Source: Candidatus Vogelbacteria bacterium
GTDB taxonomy: Bacteria > Patescibacteriota > Minisyncoccia > Phycocordibacterales > UBA12445
DNA length: 32,604 nucleotides
Direction: 5' to 3'
Assembly (NCBI GenBank): GCA_016215345.1
Contig: JACRKD010000035.1
Coordinates: forward strand, 1-32,604
Part shown: positions 1,007 to 27,584 of the stretch, piece by piece
Numbering within the stretch: the stretch's first letter is position 1
Layout: every line of letters begins with the position of its first letter
Notes under the pieces: model-generated
Seen by the model: only the letters and a program-made list of their open reading frames with translations
Told to the model about the DNA's origin: nothing
Database searches by the model: none
Position numbers and translations under genes: made by a program

Positions 1007-1645
1007 ATGAAGGAAGAAGTATATATGTTAGAATTTTGTAAACAACTTAACAAAATATTTATGTACGAAGAGAAAAAATTTAATCTTACCGGATTAAGGG
1101 GGCTATCTGACAAACAGATAAGCGAACATCTTAAGCTTTACTCCGGCTATGTAAAAAACGTAAACGGACTAGCCGAGAAGTTAGACCCGATGCAAAAGAT
1201 GGAAAATGCTGACGCATACACCATCGCCGAACTAAGAAGAAGGCTCGGGTTTGAATTTAATGGAATGAGACTTCACGAATATTATTTCGAAAATCTTGGC
1301 GGGAACAATCAATCGCCAGAATCCGACCTTGCCAAAATGGTGGAGAGCCAATATGGGACGCCAGATAACTGGTCAAAAGAATTTAAAACAGCCGGCATGG
1401 CTCGTGGCATAGGTTGGGTGATACTTTATTATGATCCGGAAATAAAAAAACTGCATAACGTTTGGATAACAGATCACGAAGTTGGACATCTCGCGGGTCT
1501 TCCTATAATTCTCGCCATGGACGTTTGGGAACACGCCTATCTTCTAGACTATCTGCCATCACAAAAAAGAGAATACATCGAAGCCTTTTTCTCGAATATA
1601 AACTGGAAGGTGGCAGAAGAAAGATTCGCAAAGGTTCGTAGATAG
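1007..1645 (+). CDS. Fe/Mn superoxide dismutase family protein
   Basis: C-terminal DVWEHAYLLDYLPSQKREYIEAFFSNINW motif; RLHEYYFENL and GWVILYYDP blocks. Confidence 0.92.
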   Translation: MKEEVYMLEFCKQLNKIFMYEEKKFNLTGLRGLSDKQISEHLKLYSGYVKNVNGLAEKLDPMQKMENADAYTIAELRRRLGFEFNGMRLHEYYFENLGGNNQSPESDLAKMVESQYGTPDNWSKEFKTAGMARGIGWVILYYDPEIKKLHNVWITDHEVGHLAGLPIILAMDVWEHAYLLDYLPSQKREYIEAFFSNINWKVAEERFAKVRR

Positions 1646-1713: not shown

Positions 1714-1755
1714 TCCTTTTACATTTACAGGCGACCGCCTAGTTTTGTAAAGTCA
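1714..1755. repeat. 42-bp palindromic element, copy A (solo, one arm partly degraded)
   Basis: TCCTTTTACATTTACAGGCGACCGCCTAGTTTTGTAAAGTCA; matches the 26477 and 27099 copies. Confidence 0.85.
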
Positions 1756-1796
1756 AAATGTCAACATTTATTTTACGGCCGTTGAAAAAAGTCTGA

Positions 1797-1846
1797 CACT
1801 TAAAATTAGAGGGTGTCATCATAATCAGACGACCCTCTAGTAAGTG
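1797..1846 (-). terminator. long nested hairpin, possible gap terminator
   Basis: CACTTA..TAGAGGGT.GTC-loop-GAC.ACCCTCTA.TAAGTG; on the minus strand followed by tcagacTTTTTT. Confidence 0.5.
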
Positions 1847-1914: not shown

Positions 1915-2970
1915 TTACTGTCCTATAAACTCTCCTGTCCTCACAACATGGTCGGCCAAGGTGTACGTATAGCCTACTTCATTATCGTACCAAGCGAGAA
2001 TTTTAACTAAATTACCGCCAACAACTCTGGTAAAATTTAAGTCAGCTATCGAGCCATACTTTGAGCCGATAACGTCTGACGAGACCAGCTGTTCTTCTGT
2101 CGTTGTAAAAATGTTTTTCCATCTATCTTCGCTCGCGGCCTTTTTGAGAATATTATTTACTTCGGCGGTGTCTGTATTCCTTTTAGCGATAAAAGTTAAA
2201 TCAACAATAGAGCCGGTTACAACCGGCACCCTAATCGCTATACCATCAAAAAAATTCTCGAGCTCTGTCGCGACTTTAGTTACCGCAATTGCCGCGCCGG
2301 TAGAAGACGGAGAGATATTCTGCGCCGCCGCTCGCCCTCTTCTGAAATCTTTTTTGGCGGGAGAATCAACGAGGCTCTGCGTCGCAGTATACGCATGGAC
2401 GGTATTAAGCAGAGCTTTTTCTATGCCAATCGTTTCTTGCATTATTGCGATTATTGGGCTTGCGGCGTTTGTGGTACAAGACGCATTCGAACTAATGCTA
2501 CAAGTTTTTAGCGCGTCATCATTGAGCCCCATTAGAACGGTCGCCCCAGCTACTCCACTGTCGGCGGGATTATCTTTAACCGGGGCCGAGACAACAACTC
2601 GCTTCGCCCCGGCTACCAAGTGAACCTTGGACTTTTCGTAACTATCAAAAACCCCAGTGGACTCAACGACAACGTCTATCTCCATATCTTTCCACGGCAA
2701 CATGCTTGGATCTTTAATCTGTAAGAATCTTATTTTTTTACCGTCTATATTCAAGAAGCCATCTTCAGCCGCGACCGAAAGACCGGACGGGCCATAGGCC
2801 GTATCGTATTTCAACAAATAAGCCAAATTGTCGGCATCACCAAGATCATTAACTGCCGAAATTTCCAACCGATTTTTAAAACGATCCTCCTTCATGGCGG
2901 TCTTTAAAAACGCTCGACCGATCCTCCCCAATCCATTTATAGCAACCTTTATTTTTTTTGAACTGTCCAT
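1915..2970 (-). CDS. gap: glyceraldehyde-3-phosphate dehydrogenase, type I
   Basis: INGLGRIGR, SNASCTTNAASP, NTVHAYTATQSLVDSP, WYDNEVGYTYTLADHV. Confidence 0.98.
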   Translation of the reverse strand: MDSSKKIKVAINGLGRIGRAFLKTAMKEDRFKNRLEISAVNDLGDADNLAYLLKYDTAYGPSGLSVAAEDGFLNIDGKKIRFLQIKDPSMLPWKDMEIDVVVESTGVFDSYEKSKVHLVAGAKRVVVSAPVKDNPADSGVAGATVLMGLNDDALKTCSISSNASCTTNAASPIIAIMQETIGIEKALLNTVHAYTATQSLVDSPAKKDFRRGRAAAQNISPSSTGAAIAVTKVATELENFFDGIAIRVPVVTGSIVDLTFIAKRNTDTAEVNNILKKAASEDRWKNIFTTTEEQLVSSDVIGSKYGSIADLNFTRVVGGNLVKILAWYDNEVGYTYTLADHVVRTGEFIGQ

Positions 2971-11650: not shown

Positions 11651-13072
11651 TTAAAGCTGCCTAACCCGTCCACTAGGGTTATCAATCTGGAGAGGGATGG
11701 AAACAGTTTTTATACTCCCGCCGCTTCTGGGTGTGGCGAGAAGAACTACCGTGTAATCACCGGTTGAAAGAGACGTATCGGACACGCCAGGGTCCTGATT
11801 CTTAGTCAATTGCAAAACAATTGTCGCGCTTTCGGCCTGATCGGGGTCAAGATTGACAAAAGGTCCTGAAGTGGGAGCCTTGGTGAATATGGGGGTTACA
11901 AGCAGAGTTGATGGCGACGACGCACCAACCCCAGCCTTTATTGAATTATCTACATTGTAACTTATGTGATGGAAGGTTATGTCCACAGTACTACCGAAAG
12001 AAGAGACTTGTCCCGCTGGCTTACCGACCGCAATGGAAACCGTAGCCGGAATCGTCGTCGAATTTATACTCCTGACGAATCTGGCCGACATAGAACCCGA
12101 CGGTATAACAGTAAACTCTTTCGGACCGATAGTAATCGATCCCCCACAATCAGAAATCAACAGTGAATTACTGTCGATAGTAACGCTAGGGGCCGAAACA
12201 GACCCTGGAGTTCCATATGTAACAGTTATGGTATCAGTTCCTTGCCCGGAAGTAATTCCCGACCCAGTCCAAACGTAAGTATGAGCCACACCGTCCGCGG
12301 GAATAATTGAGGCCGTCCAGTTCACGGTTGCACCGACATTAATAACACTTGGGCTATGAGTGCACGATACAGATCTCGTATTGTTATTAGGAAGAGAATC
12401 AAGCATGCTCACGGCATAATTGCTTCCGCTAAGACTTATCCAACCGGGAAACTGTGGCGAAACATTATTACTGCTCAAATCCAGTTCCACTCCTCCCGCC
12501 CAAGCAAAGCCCGAAAATCTCTTCGTCGCAGAATCAAATACCCCCCCATAAGGCGCGCCGCCAGTTGTCAATCCAGATAAACTAACCCAGCCATCCCACC
12601 CACCACGGACAAAGTCATTTTTAAGTGGCCCGCTACAACCACTCTCAAACACGGAGCAAGCCCTGGCCCAACCCTTTAGTTTATTGTCCGGGGCCAGAAC
12701 GGGACCGGAGGCAATCTCTCCGCCGGTCGGATAGGCTGGCGCTGTTCCGGAAACATTGTCTTCACTACATAATTTGGTCTGCGTAGTGTTACCAACACTG
12801 GGATCTAATCGCCCACATCCAAAATTAATCCAGCCAATATTTGACGACCAAGCGTAACCGTTTAAATAGGAAGGAGTGACCGGATCATAATTATTCAGAT
12901 AAACATAGTAATTCGGATTAACGCCGCTAAAACTAATCCAGCCAATATTTGACGACCAAGCGTAACCGGACAGATACTTCACCACGCCGGCAGCCCTCGA
13001 GTTAGAGAAAAAGGAGGCAGTAATGAGAAATACGATAAAAACTAAAACGGCAGATAATGTCTTGTGTCTCAT
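11651..13072 (-). CDS. secreted/surface protein with GYAWSSNIGWISF repeats
   Basis: N-terminal signal peptide-like segment; repeats LSGYAWSSNIGWISFSG, LNGYAWSSNIGWINFGC plus more diverged GW(V/I)SLSG copies. Confidence 0.85.
   Translation of the reverse strand: MRHKTLSAVLVFIVFLITASFFSNSRAAGVVKYLSGYAWSSNIGWISFSGVNPNYYVYLNNYDPVTPSYLNGYAWSSNIGWINFGCGRLDPSVGNTTQTKLCSEDNVSGTAPAYPTGGEIASGPVLAPDNKLKGWARACSVFESGCSGPLKNDFVRGGWDGWVSLSGLTTGGAPYGGVFDSATKRFSGFAWAGGVELDLSSNNVSPQFPGWISLSGSNYAVSMLDSLPNNNTRSVSCTHSPSVINVGATVNWTASIIPADGVAHTYVWTGSGITSGQGTDTITVTYGTPGSVSAPSVTIDSNSLLISDCGGSITIGPKEFTVIPSGSMSARFVRSINSTTIPATVSIAVGKPAGQVSSFGSTVDITFHHISYNVDNSIKAGVGASSPSTLLVTPIFTKAPTSGPFVNLDPDQAESATIVLQLTKNQDPGVSDTSLSTGDYTVVLLATPRSGGSIKTVSIPLQIDNPSGRVRQL
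12826..12968. repeat. exact 35-bp direct repeat, period 108 bp, inside the surface-protein gene
   Basis: TAATCCAGCCAATATTTGACGACCAAGCGTAACCG at 12826-12860 and 12934-12968. Confidence 0.95.
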
Positions 13073-22621: not shown

Positions 22622-23336
22622 TTTTCCTGCCTGCCGACAGGCAGGTTAAATTTTCTATCCTCTTTTTTACTTCTCCTTTTTCTTTATCAAAATCCCCCGC
22701 TCCGCTTTCATCTTTTCCAAAAACAGCCGAACCGACTATCGCATTCTCAACTCCGAGGTCTGCTAACTTTTTCAAGTTTGAAGAATTTACCCCGCCGTCA
22801 ACATTAATTCTAACACCAGGGTATTTCACAAGCAAACCTTCAATCTTATTAAAAACCTCATCATCAAATGGCTCTCCGTAGGCTCCTATCTTATCAATAC
22901 TCATGAACTGGACAACGTCAATGTTGTTCATAAAATTATCCAAAACATCAATTGGAGTTTCCATTTTTAAAACTATTCCCACTTCTATTTCTTCATCTTT
23001 AACCCTGGCAATAATATCTTTTAACGTGTCTTCGTCAGTAGATTCGTAATGAACAAGGATCCTGTCAGCCCCAGTTGATAACCATTTATCTAAAATTAAC
23101 TCAGGATTTTTTACCATCAAGTGGACCTCCATTTTTAAAACATCCGTTCTCACAAAATCCGCTAGATTTATTTCACTAAAGGCGTCTTCATTTTCGTAAT
23201 ACGGCCAAGTTTCCTGTGGGGCAAAAACCCCGTCAGAGATATCGACCTGGATCCACTTAGTAGATTCATTTACTAACTCAACTTTTCCGTTGACCTCTTC
23301 AAAATCTCTTCCGATTATGGATGGTATTATGTTCAT
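22614..23336 (-). CDS. rpe: ribulose-phosphate 3-epimerase
   Basis: MNIIPSIIGRDFEEV, WIQVDISDGVFAPQETWPYYE, VHLMVKNPELIL, INVDGGVNSSNLKKLADLGVENAIVGSAVFG. Confidence 0.9.
   Translation of the reverse strand: MNIIPSIIGRDFEEVNGKVELVNESTKWIQVDISDGVFAPQETWPYYENEDAFSEINLADFVRTDVLKMEVHLMVKNPELILDKWLSTGADRILVHYESTDEDTLKDIIARVKDEEIEVGIVLKMETPIDVLDNFMNNIDVVQFMSIDKIGAYGEPFDDEVFNKIEGLLVKYPGVRINVDGGVNSSNLKKLADLGVENAIVGSAVFGKDESGAGDFDKEKGEVKKRIENLTCLSAGRKNA
22626..22645. repeat. CCTGCCTGCCGACAGGCAGG palindrome (near-copy of 27533-27552)
   Basis: 20-bp near-perfect palindrome within the rpe 3' end, next to the transketolase start. Confidence 0.85.
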
Positions 23337-26476: not shown

Positions 26477-26518
26477 TGACTTTACAAAAATAGGCGGTCG
26501 CCTGTAACTGTAAAGTCA
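26477..26518 (-). repeat. 42-bp palindromic element, copy B (terminal inverted repeat candidate)
   Basis: TGACTTTACAAAAATAGGCGGTCGCCTGTAACTGTAAAGTCA. Confidence 0.95.
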
Positions 26519-26541
26519 AGAAAAAAATAGCTCAAACTAAA

Positions 26542-27099
26542 CTATAGACGAAACACAGACCTTAGGGCATCATCATTTGTAATCTGCGCAACGACGGCAT
26601 AGTGAACGTATTGCCCAACTTCAAAAATCTCGCCAATAAAATCAATTTCTTTCTGACATTCGTACGGAAAGACCCATACACTATTATTAAATCTCACAAA
26701 CTCTAAATCTTTAAGCTTACAGACCAGCGCGTTCCTAGCTGCCTTTTTAGATTCGGGGATATCAAAGAAGACCAACCTCCACCTACCGTCCCAGATAGTA
26801 GGACGACCAACCTTCATCCCATCAAAATTATATTTTAATAACTGTTTTCTACCGTTTTCTGTAATTACAATTTCAACCTCATCATCTTTTTCTACAAAAG
26901 AAATTAAATCTTTCCTTCGTAAATAATAAAATTTTTGCAACAAAAATTCTTTCTTGAGTTTTTTGTTTTGTAATTCGTGCCTAATACTAGAAATAATCTT
27001 TTTTGCGACATAAGGAGAAGTAAGCGCAAGGGTTATCGCGCCACCCAACGCAAGTACGTAAAGTATCTCTTTTAAGATATTTTTATTCCGTTCCACCAT
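26542..27099 (-). CDS. PaaX-like/Cas2-like domain protein with N-terminal hydrophobic segment and winged-helix-like region
   Basis: WDGRWRLVFFDIPESKKAARNALVCKLKDLEFVRFNNSVWVFPYECQKEIDFI ... YVHYAVVAQI resembles the Cas2-like domain of PaaX-family proteins; VITENGRKQLLKY winged-helix-like. Confidence 0.75.
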   Translation of the reverse strand: MVERNKNILKEILYVLALGGAITLALTSPYVAKKIISSIRHELQNKKLKKEFLLQKFYYLRRKDLISFVEKDDEVEIVITENGRKQLLKYNFDGMKVGRPTIWDGRWRLVFFDIPESKKAARNALVCKLKDLEFVRFNNSVWVFPYECQKEIDFIGEIFEVGQYVHYAVVAQITNDDALRSVFRL

Positions 27100-27140
27100 G
27101 ACTTTACATTATGAGGCGACCGCCTACTTTTGTAAAGTTA
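27099..27140 (+). repeat. 42-bp palindromic element, copy C (inverted relative to copy B)
   Basis: TGACTTTACATTATGAGGCGACCGCCTACTTTTGTAAAGTTA. Confidence 0.95.
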
Positions 27141-27508: not shown

Positions 27509-27584
27509 AAAGATAAACGAGATACGACCTTTCCTGCCTGCCGGCAGGCAGGTTATGTTTAAGGTCGGACATTGTTTATCTTTT
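27509..27584 (-). repeat. large nested hairpin containing the CCTGCCTGCCGGCAGGCAGG palindrome, downstream of typA
   Basis: AAAAGATAAAC/GTTTATCTTTT outer, CGACCTT/AAGGTCG middle, 20-bp perfect palindrome in the centre. Confidence 0.85.

Follow-up and report, generated by a model that had tools for sequence, protein, structure and literature searches.

The 42-bp palindrome standing alone near the start of the window (the whole stretch of 32,604 nucleotides analysed here) raises the question of why a sequence that also forms both ends of a single-gene element should be found in the gap between two other genes. The original prediction took it for a dispersed, MITE-like repeat rather than a simple operator, on account of its location, and suggested that it was possibly mobilised in trans by the Cas2-like protein encoded between the two other copies. 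The features concerned are the following.

1714-1755, plus strand: copy A, solo family-1 palindrome TCCTTTTACATTTACAGGCGACCGCCTAGTTTTGTAAAGTCA, consisting of a left arm, a GACC centre and a right arm, with the 5' arm partly degraded
1759-1798, plus strand: palindrome belonging to a second family and likewise solo, TGTCA..ACGGCCGT..TGACA, 3 bp beyond copy A
26477-27140, minus strand: whole single-gene element of 664 bp, between murB and typA/bipA
26477-26518, minus strand: copy B, the end of the gene-bearing element that lies downstream, 23 bp past the stop codon
26542-27099, minus strand: gene for a winged-helix plus PaaX_M/Cas2-like protein of 185 aa, whose Asp113 is aligned with the N-terminal Asp of Cas2
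27099-27140, plus strand: copy C, the end that lies upstream; the base with which it opens is the complement of the start-codon A

The solo palindrome and its copies in the window genome

Copy A is intergenic, lying between the 3' ends of the convergent genes sod (1007-1645, plus strand) and gap (1915-2970, minus strand), with copies B and C about 24.7 kb away (the distance had been put at about 25 kb). Its 5' arm is degraded as described beforehand (TCCTTTTACA versus TGACTTTACA). Each family-1 copy has one left and one right arm, the window copies GCGACCGC agree with the core RCNNNNGY, and B and C are inverted relative to each other with the Cas2-like gene between them. When the window was searched with a 28-bp core allowing up to 3 mismatches, copy A was found together with a single further site (26481-26508, minus strand, copy B), against a chance expectation of 0.00 (0 of 100 dinucleotide shuffles), and the third copy was recovered with a 12-bp core and with a palindrome pattern.

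The window genome (G000) belongs to the Patescibacteria (CPR) and comprises 705 kb in 44 contigs, at 95% completeness. Across these contigs the palindrome pattern detected five strong family-1 copies (C9:1192, C27:1718, C27:26481, C27:27103 and C36:30815) and two further relatives with 3 mismatches (C12:6507 and C17:19935), and a reversed control pattern had no match in the same genome. Chance similarity was thus rejected on the shuffles, the five genome copies and the silent control, and copy A is a genuine member of a repeat family, one that had 0 copies in 59 other genomes of the same order. The two other strong solos are in promoter-like regions: one has gatC on one side and a divergently oriented transposase gene on the other, and the second directly precedes a CorA-like gene; an IS-type transposase adjoins the solo at C9. 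The location argument of the original prediction is therefore weak, while its main claim, a dispersed repeat tied to the Cas2-like gene and not a simple operator, is well supported by the bracketing of the gene, the solos, the empty, solo and full sites and the recurrence in the phylum. In other words, a plain operator is disfavoured because of the comparative evidence described below, and not because of where copy A lies.

The match of copy A to element ends B and C of the same genome is what would be seen with a MITE or a solo end, the element itself being presumably autonomous. An empty counterpart of copy A was sought in the sod-gap region of same-family genomes, which gave no clear orthologous intergenic sequence. 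Rfam reported only five tRNAs in the window and no known RNA family at the palindromes.

The second-family palindrome next to copy A also has copies elsewhere in the genome, at C28:8969, at C36:27190 and as a pair at C19:33208/33888 spaced like element ends. From this pair a Cas2-like gene was predicted to lie in between, and a divergent Cas2-like ORF (E 5e-19), absent from the first protein search list, was found there. The profile search yielded three Cas2-like matches in the window genome, and a third element (L047, C15:14507-15037, minus strand) has a gene with an internal TAA flanked on both sides by imperfect palindromes, GTGTCTTACTA..ACGGTCGT..TAGTAAGACAC. Two other repeats were observed in passing: a dispersed hairpin repeat, TCCTGCCTGCCGGCAGGCAGG, at window positions 22623-22653 and 27530-27560, with further copies on C22, C33, C34, C28 and C11 of the same genome, and a 40-bp direct repeat, 98% identical (12821-12860 and 12929-12968), within the ORF at 11651-13072.

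The Cas2-like protein of the element

In the Pfam scan, the protein between copies B and C matched PF20803 (PaaX_M, the Cas2-like central domain of PaaX) with an E-value of 7.6e-19 and 68 bits against a cut-off of 24. The Cas2 models remained below their cut-offs (TIGR01573, 14.3 versus 24.5 bits; PF09827, 17.1 versus 23.8) and the PaaX equivalog TIGR02277 failed by far (18.5 versus 264.55 bits). The C-terminal PaaX domain is absent, since the protein stops after the Cas2-like domain at residue 185, and beyond PaaX_M and the weak Cas2 match the scan gave no Y1 HUH transposase domain (Transposase_17/Y1_Tnp). No cas1 was present among the nine window proteins scanned, the neighbours of the element being murB and typA, and PADLOC returned weak Cas2 models only and no defence system.

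Comparing the sequence of this one protein with those of solved structures gave nothing useful. The predicted structure (mean pLDDT 83.8, pTM 0.63), in which the first 50 residues are of low confidence, contains a winged-helix region and a ferredoxin-like domain; its best solved fold match was PaaX of E. coli (8a39, E 3.1e-4), followed by other PaaX-like and Cas2 structures with E above 0.001. In alignments of homologues, Trp103, Asp104, Arg108, Asp113 and Ser140 show no or almost no variation. Asp113, invariant in the 24 and the 61 sequences of two alignments, falls in the same alignment column as the Asp of the first strand (LVVYD) in the Cas2-type RNase 3exc, and this one conserved residue is the basis of a putative nuclease activity. 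The dN/dS values of orthologous genes in species pairs (0.07-0.12) indicate strong purifying selection, so that the protein is kept functional, often staying in place.

Paired ends and a shared centre

The arrangement seen in the window is repeated at most loci encoding a homologue, with one palindrome of 36-64 bp (median 42) near the start codon and another soon after the stop codon, the two being like each other and unlike those of other loci. In 56 of 70 loci, and in 56 of 75 of a separately fetched set from named genomes, the upstream and downstream flanks were more alike than mismatched pairs are at their 99th percentile; the two sets overlap in some species and may share some loci. About one fifth to one quarter of the loci have no clear pair of matching ends. 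As a control, 15 of 341 ORFs in half of genome G058 exceeded the same flank-match score, and these included three of its five elements. End orientation is readable only where the centre is asymmetric, and in most such loci the centres are inverted, a few looking direct.

What the families have in common is the centre. In 178 flank palindromes, G occupied position +3 in 93% of the arms, C or T position +4 in 92% and T position +1 in 77%, which gives the shared form RCNNNNGY (most commonly GCTATAGC or GCGATCGC) between variable arms. No fixed motif like the GTAG-type foot tetranucleotide was detected at positions 17-22 from the centre. The palindromes evolve far faster than the proteins, and similarity of the former correlates only weakly with that of the latter (Mantel 0.11, 1 in 500 permutations). 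Fine co-evolution of protein and palindrome is consequently not claimed, and the weak correlation means that either recognition depends largely on the centre that the families share and on palindromy as such, or gene conversion keeps the two ends alike. Orthologous palindromes show matched substitutions in both arms, and solos carry private perfect extensions past the shared core; such changes point to template-switch correction or to selection for symmetry.

Recurrence across the phylum

Homologues of the protein were found in 91 of 287 genomes sampled from the phylum, with 1-11 copies each, and in 24 of 60 relatives, with up to six per genome. In one genus represented by 16 species, several contigs of which match records named Candidatus Yonathbacteria, ten species have 1-6 copies and six have none. 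Nearly all of the best 80 loci among 555 relatives in a GTDB-based collection bear names of Patescibacteria; these 80 also include a Thermodesulfobacteriota contig and an Omnitrophota contig, which may be binning errors. A phage origin was rejected, no relative having been found in IMG/VR. Around pgk-HIT-recJ, Cas2-like elements occur in either orientation in several of the order's families (L013, L023, L038, L077, L078).

Full, solo and empty sites

All three states are seen in the yebC-ruvC gap of one genus. Two species, G058 and G068, have the full element there, and their close relative G067 has a single palindrome, with the left flank of the G068 upstream palindrome on one side of it and the right flank of the downstream one on the other. 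Three further species (G061, G062 and G074) present single palindromes of three other families, and in G063, G065, G066, G072 and G073 neither palindrome nor element is found. An element or solo is thus present at this site in 6 of 9 gene-bearing species versus 0 of 5 gene-less ones, numbers that are small and come from related species. The direction of change at the G067 site, be it gene loss or gain elsewhere, is read from the relatedness of the species.

In G001, a genome of the same family as the window genome, only about 30 bp separate murB from typA and the element is absent, the window having the element and about 440 bp more. In the gap following the gene that ends in GAGGTACGATAG (L254, L255, L141), G058, G068 and G067 carry solos of three families at one orthologous spot, and the same gap is empty in G061 and G062. 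Solos of the yebC-ruvC family are also present elsewhere, at four sites in G058 and in G067, G068 and G074 too, the number of palindrome copies per family in G058 being about 3-6. The low number of solos counts against a mobile element: the window genome has five strong copies in all, and solo core palindromes amount to about 10 in 381 kb of the gene-bearing G058 and to 1 in a 272-kb sample of the gene-bearing G062, and to 0 in 370 kb of G065 and 2 in 284 kb of G066, both gene-less; the tie between solo number and presence of the gene is uneven and at most suggestive.

No target site duplication was resolved at yebC-ruvC, copy A lacks a clean empty site, the flanks of the G058 site C2:9477 were too diverged for a clean comparison, and no transposition event was resolved in the genomes compared. 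Orthologous elements remain in place across species under purifying selection and therefore are not highly mobile now. In two palindrome families, the same insert of about 80 bp was observed inside the palindrome centres (GCTAT / TATAGC), at about 3478-3606 of L103 (G058:C6:43478-43606) and in L255 (G067:C23), with an apparent 3-bp TAT duplication; it seems to be a mini-element that targets palindrome centres.

Weighing the explanations

The family unit is one small protein, with an N-terminal winged helix and a Cas2-like ferredoxin domain, encoded between a pair of palindrome copies, and further solo copies lie around the genome. The 42-bp palindrome is probably the end of the 664-bp single-gene element, and copy A a solo dispersed from or left by such an element, the whole being a REP/RAYT-like system in which a Cas2-like DNA-binding protein takes the place of the Y1 transposase. 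The main rival is that the protein acts as a PaaX-like autoregulated repressor and the palindromes as its operators, the upstream one repressing the gene, the downstream one and the solos controlling neighbouring genes, and the patchiness reflecting ordinary gene gain and loss. The winged helix with a PaaX_M domain, the fold match to PaaX, the contact of the upstream palindrome with the start codon and the two strong solos placed upstream of genes all agree with it; moreover, PaaX represses its own promoter by binding TGATTC(N27)GAATCA, whose span is close to 42 bp (PMC9493321). Such a repressor leaves unexplained why a matching palindrome follows the stop codon at most loci, why copy A is found where two genes converge, why one orthologous gap holds solos of different families and why there are full, solo and empty states. 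It also sits badly with palindromes that change far faster than the proteins, and is considered fairly unlikely.

It is improbable that the palindromes are driven by structure, that is, that they are hairpins or terminators perfected by template switching, with ends kept alike by gene conversion and the Cas2-like gene being incidental. The compensating changes in the arms at orthologous sites, the private perfect extensions of solos and the occurrence in these genomes of other long perfect, terminator-like hairpins would be expected from such a process, which does not account for bracketing centred on one protein family, for a RCNNNNGY centre common to most families when ordinary hairpins mostly have other centres (as counted in G058), or for families that recur at unrelated sites. 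Solo copies, empty sites and the transposase beside the C9 solo might also be the remnant of a conventional IS/MITE family with its transposase elsewhere and the Cas2-like gene as a passenger; this is very improbable given more than 100 loci at which a Cas2-like gene stands between ends that match each other, the elements being some 700 bp long with no room for a second gene. As for chance similarity of the three palindromes, only the small copy number speaks for it, and its probability is practically nil in view of the shuffles, the unmatched control and the recurrence in over 100 loci.

Proposed mechanism and implications

We infer that the palindrome is recognised by the Cas2-like protein. 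By analogy with PaaX on its spaced inverted repeat, a dimer of the protein would sit on the palindrome, the 42 bp being suitable because the PaaX repeat has a similar span, with the winged helices placed along the outer arms and the Cas2-like dimer lying across the centre. The dimer could then nick or process the palindrome, whether as duplex, cruciform or single-strand hairpin during replication, after which the palindrome, or the gene with its palindrome, would be copied into further gaps between genes, and a solo would be left where the two ends recombine. Movement of copy A in trans, as suggested originally, is possibly part of such a process. A wider proposal, judged somewhat likelier to be wrong than right, is that the Cas2-like winged-helix protein is the sole enzyme of widespread palindrome-bracketed mobile elements in Patescibacteria, recognising and processing 36-64-bp palindromes at their CNNNNG centre and seeding solos, that the system had an origin independent of REP/RAYT, and that the protein is a possible relative of the stock behind CRISPR Cas2.

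If the protein does move palindromes, the processing of DNA by Cas2-like folds is not confined to CRISPR adaptation. REP-type systems would then have originated repeatedly, from proteins that are unrelated, and a large bacterial group that has been little studied would possess a repeat system of its own, selfish or domesticated. Should it only bind them, it is a puzzle how fast-changing paired palindromes and a protein stay matched. A search of the open-access literature, a scope that excludes preprints and most subscription papers, turned up neither a description of this family nor a mobile or REP-like system with a Cas2-like protein as sole protein, and the novelty of the family is provisional.

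Comparison with known systems

With MITEs and solo IS ends the family shares short solo element ends dispersed in intergenic DNA, but each end is here a full palindrome, no target duplication was resolved and there is no classical transposase. CRISPR Cas2 proteins (TIGR01573, PF09827) have in common with the present protein the ferredoxin-like domain, the conserved N-terminal Asp and the Q-x-S-V/A-W/F motif (compared with 3exc); the latter differs in being fused to a winged helix, in scoring below the Cas2 cut-offs and in having no cas1 among the nearby proteins scanned. PaaX repressors (TIGR02277, PF20803; PDB 8a39, 3l09) likewise consist of a winged helix followed by a Cas2-like domain and bind a long inverted repeat. 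The family described here, however, lacks the C-terminal PaaX domain, scores far below the equivalog cut-off, is not located in a paa cluster and has palindromes on both sides of the gene.

The closest likeness in organisation is to the REP/RAYT systems, TnpA-REP and REPtrons (PMC2817692, PMC3116915, PMC8266576), in which a single gene is also placed between two inverted palindromes. RAYT genes are flanked by two inverted REPs that are variable yet palindromic, and orthologous genes stay put (PMC2817692); here too the orthologous genes remain in place while the palindromes change and stay palindromic. Both systems have family-specific palindromes and solo palindromes elsewhere, mostly in intergenic DNA. 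They differ in the protein, a Y1 HUH transposase there and a Cas2-like domain with a winged helix here, in the palindromes, which are here longer (36-64 bp), usually perfect and provided with the shared centre RCNNNNGY, and in copy number, about 3-10 per family here versus hundreds (often over 100) for REPs. Since the Cas2-like protein is unrelated to RAYTs, the family is not filed as a REP/RAYT member; it seems to be a so far undescribed family of DNA that is mobile or was so once.
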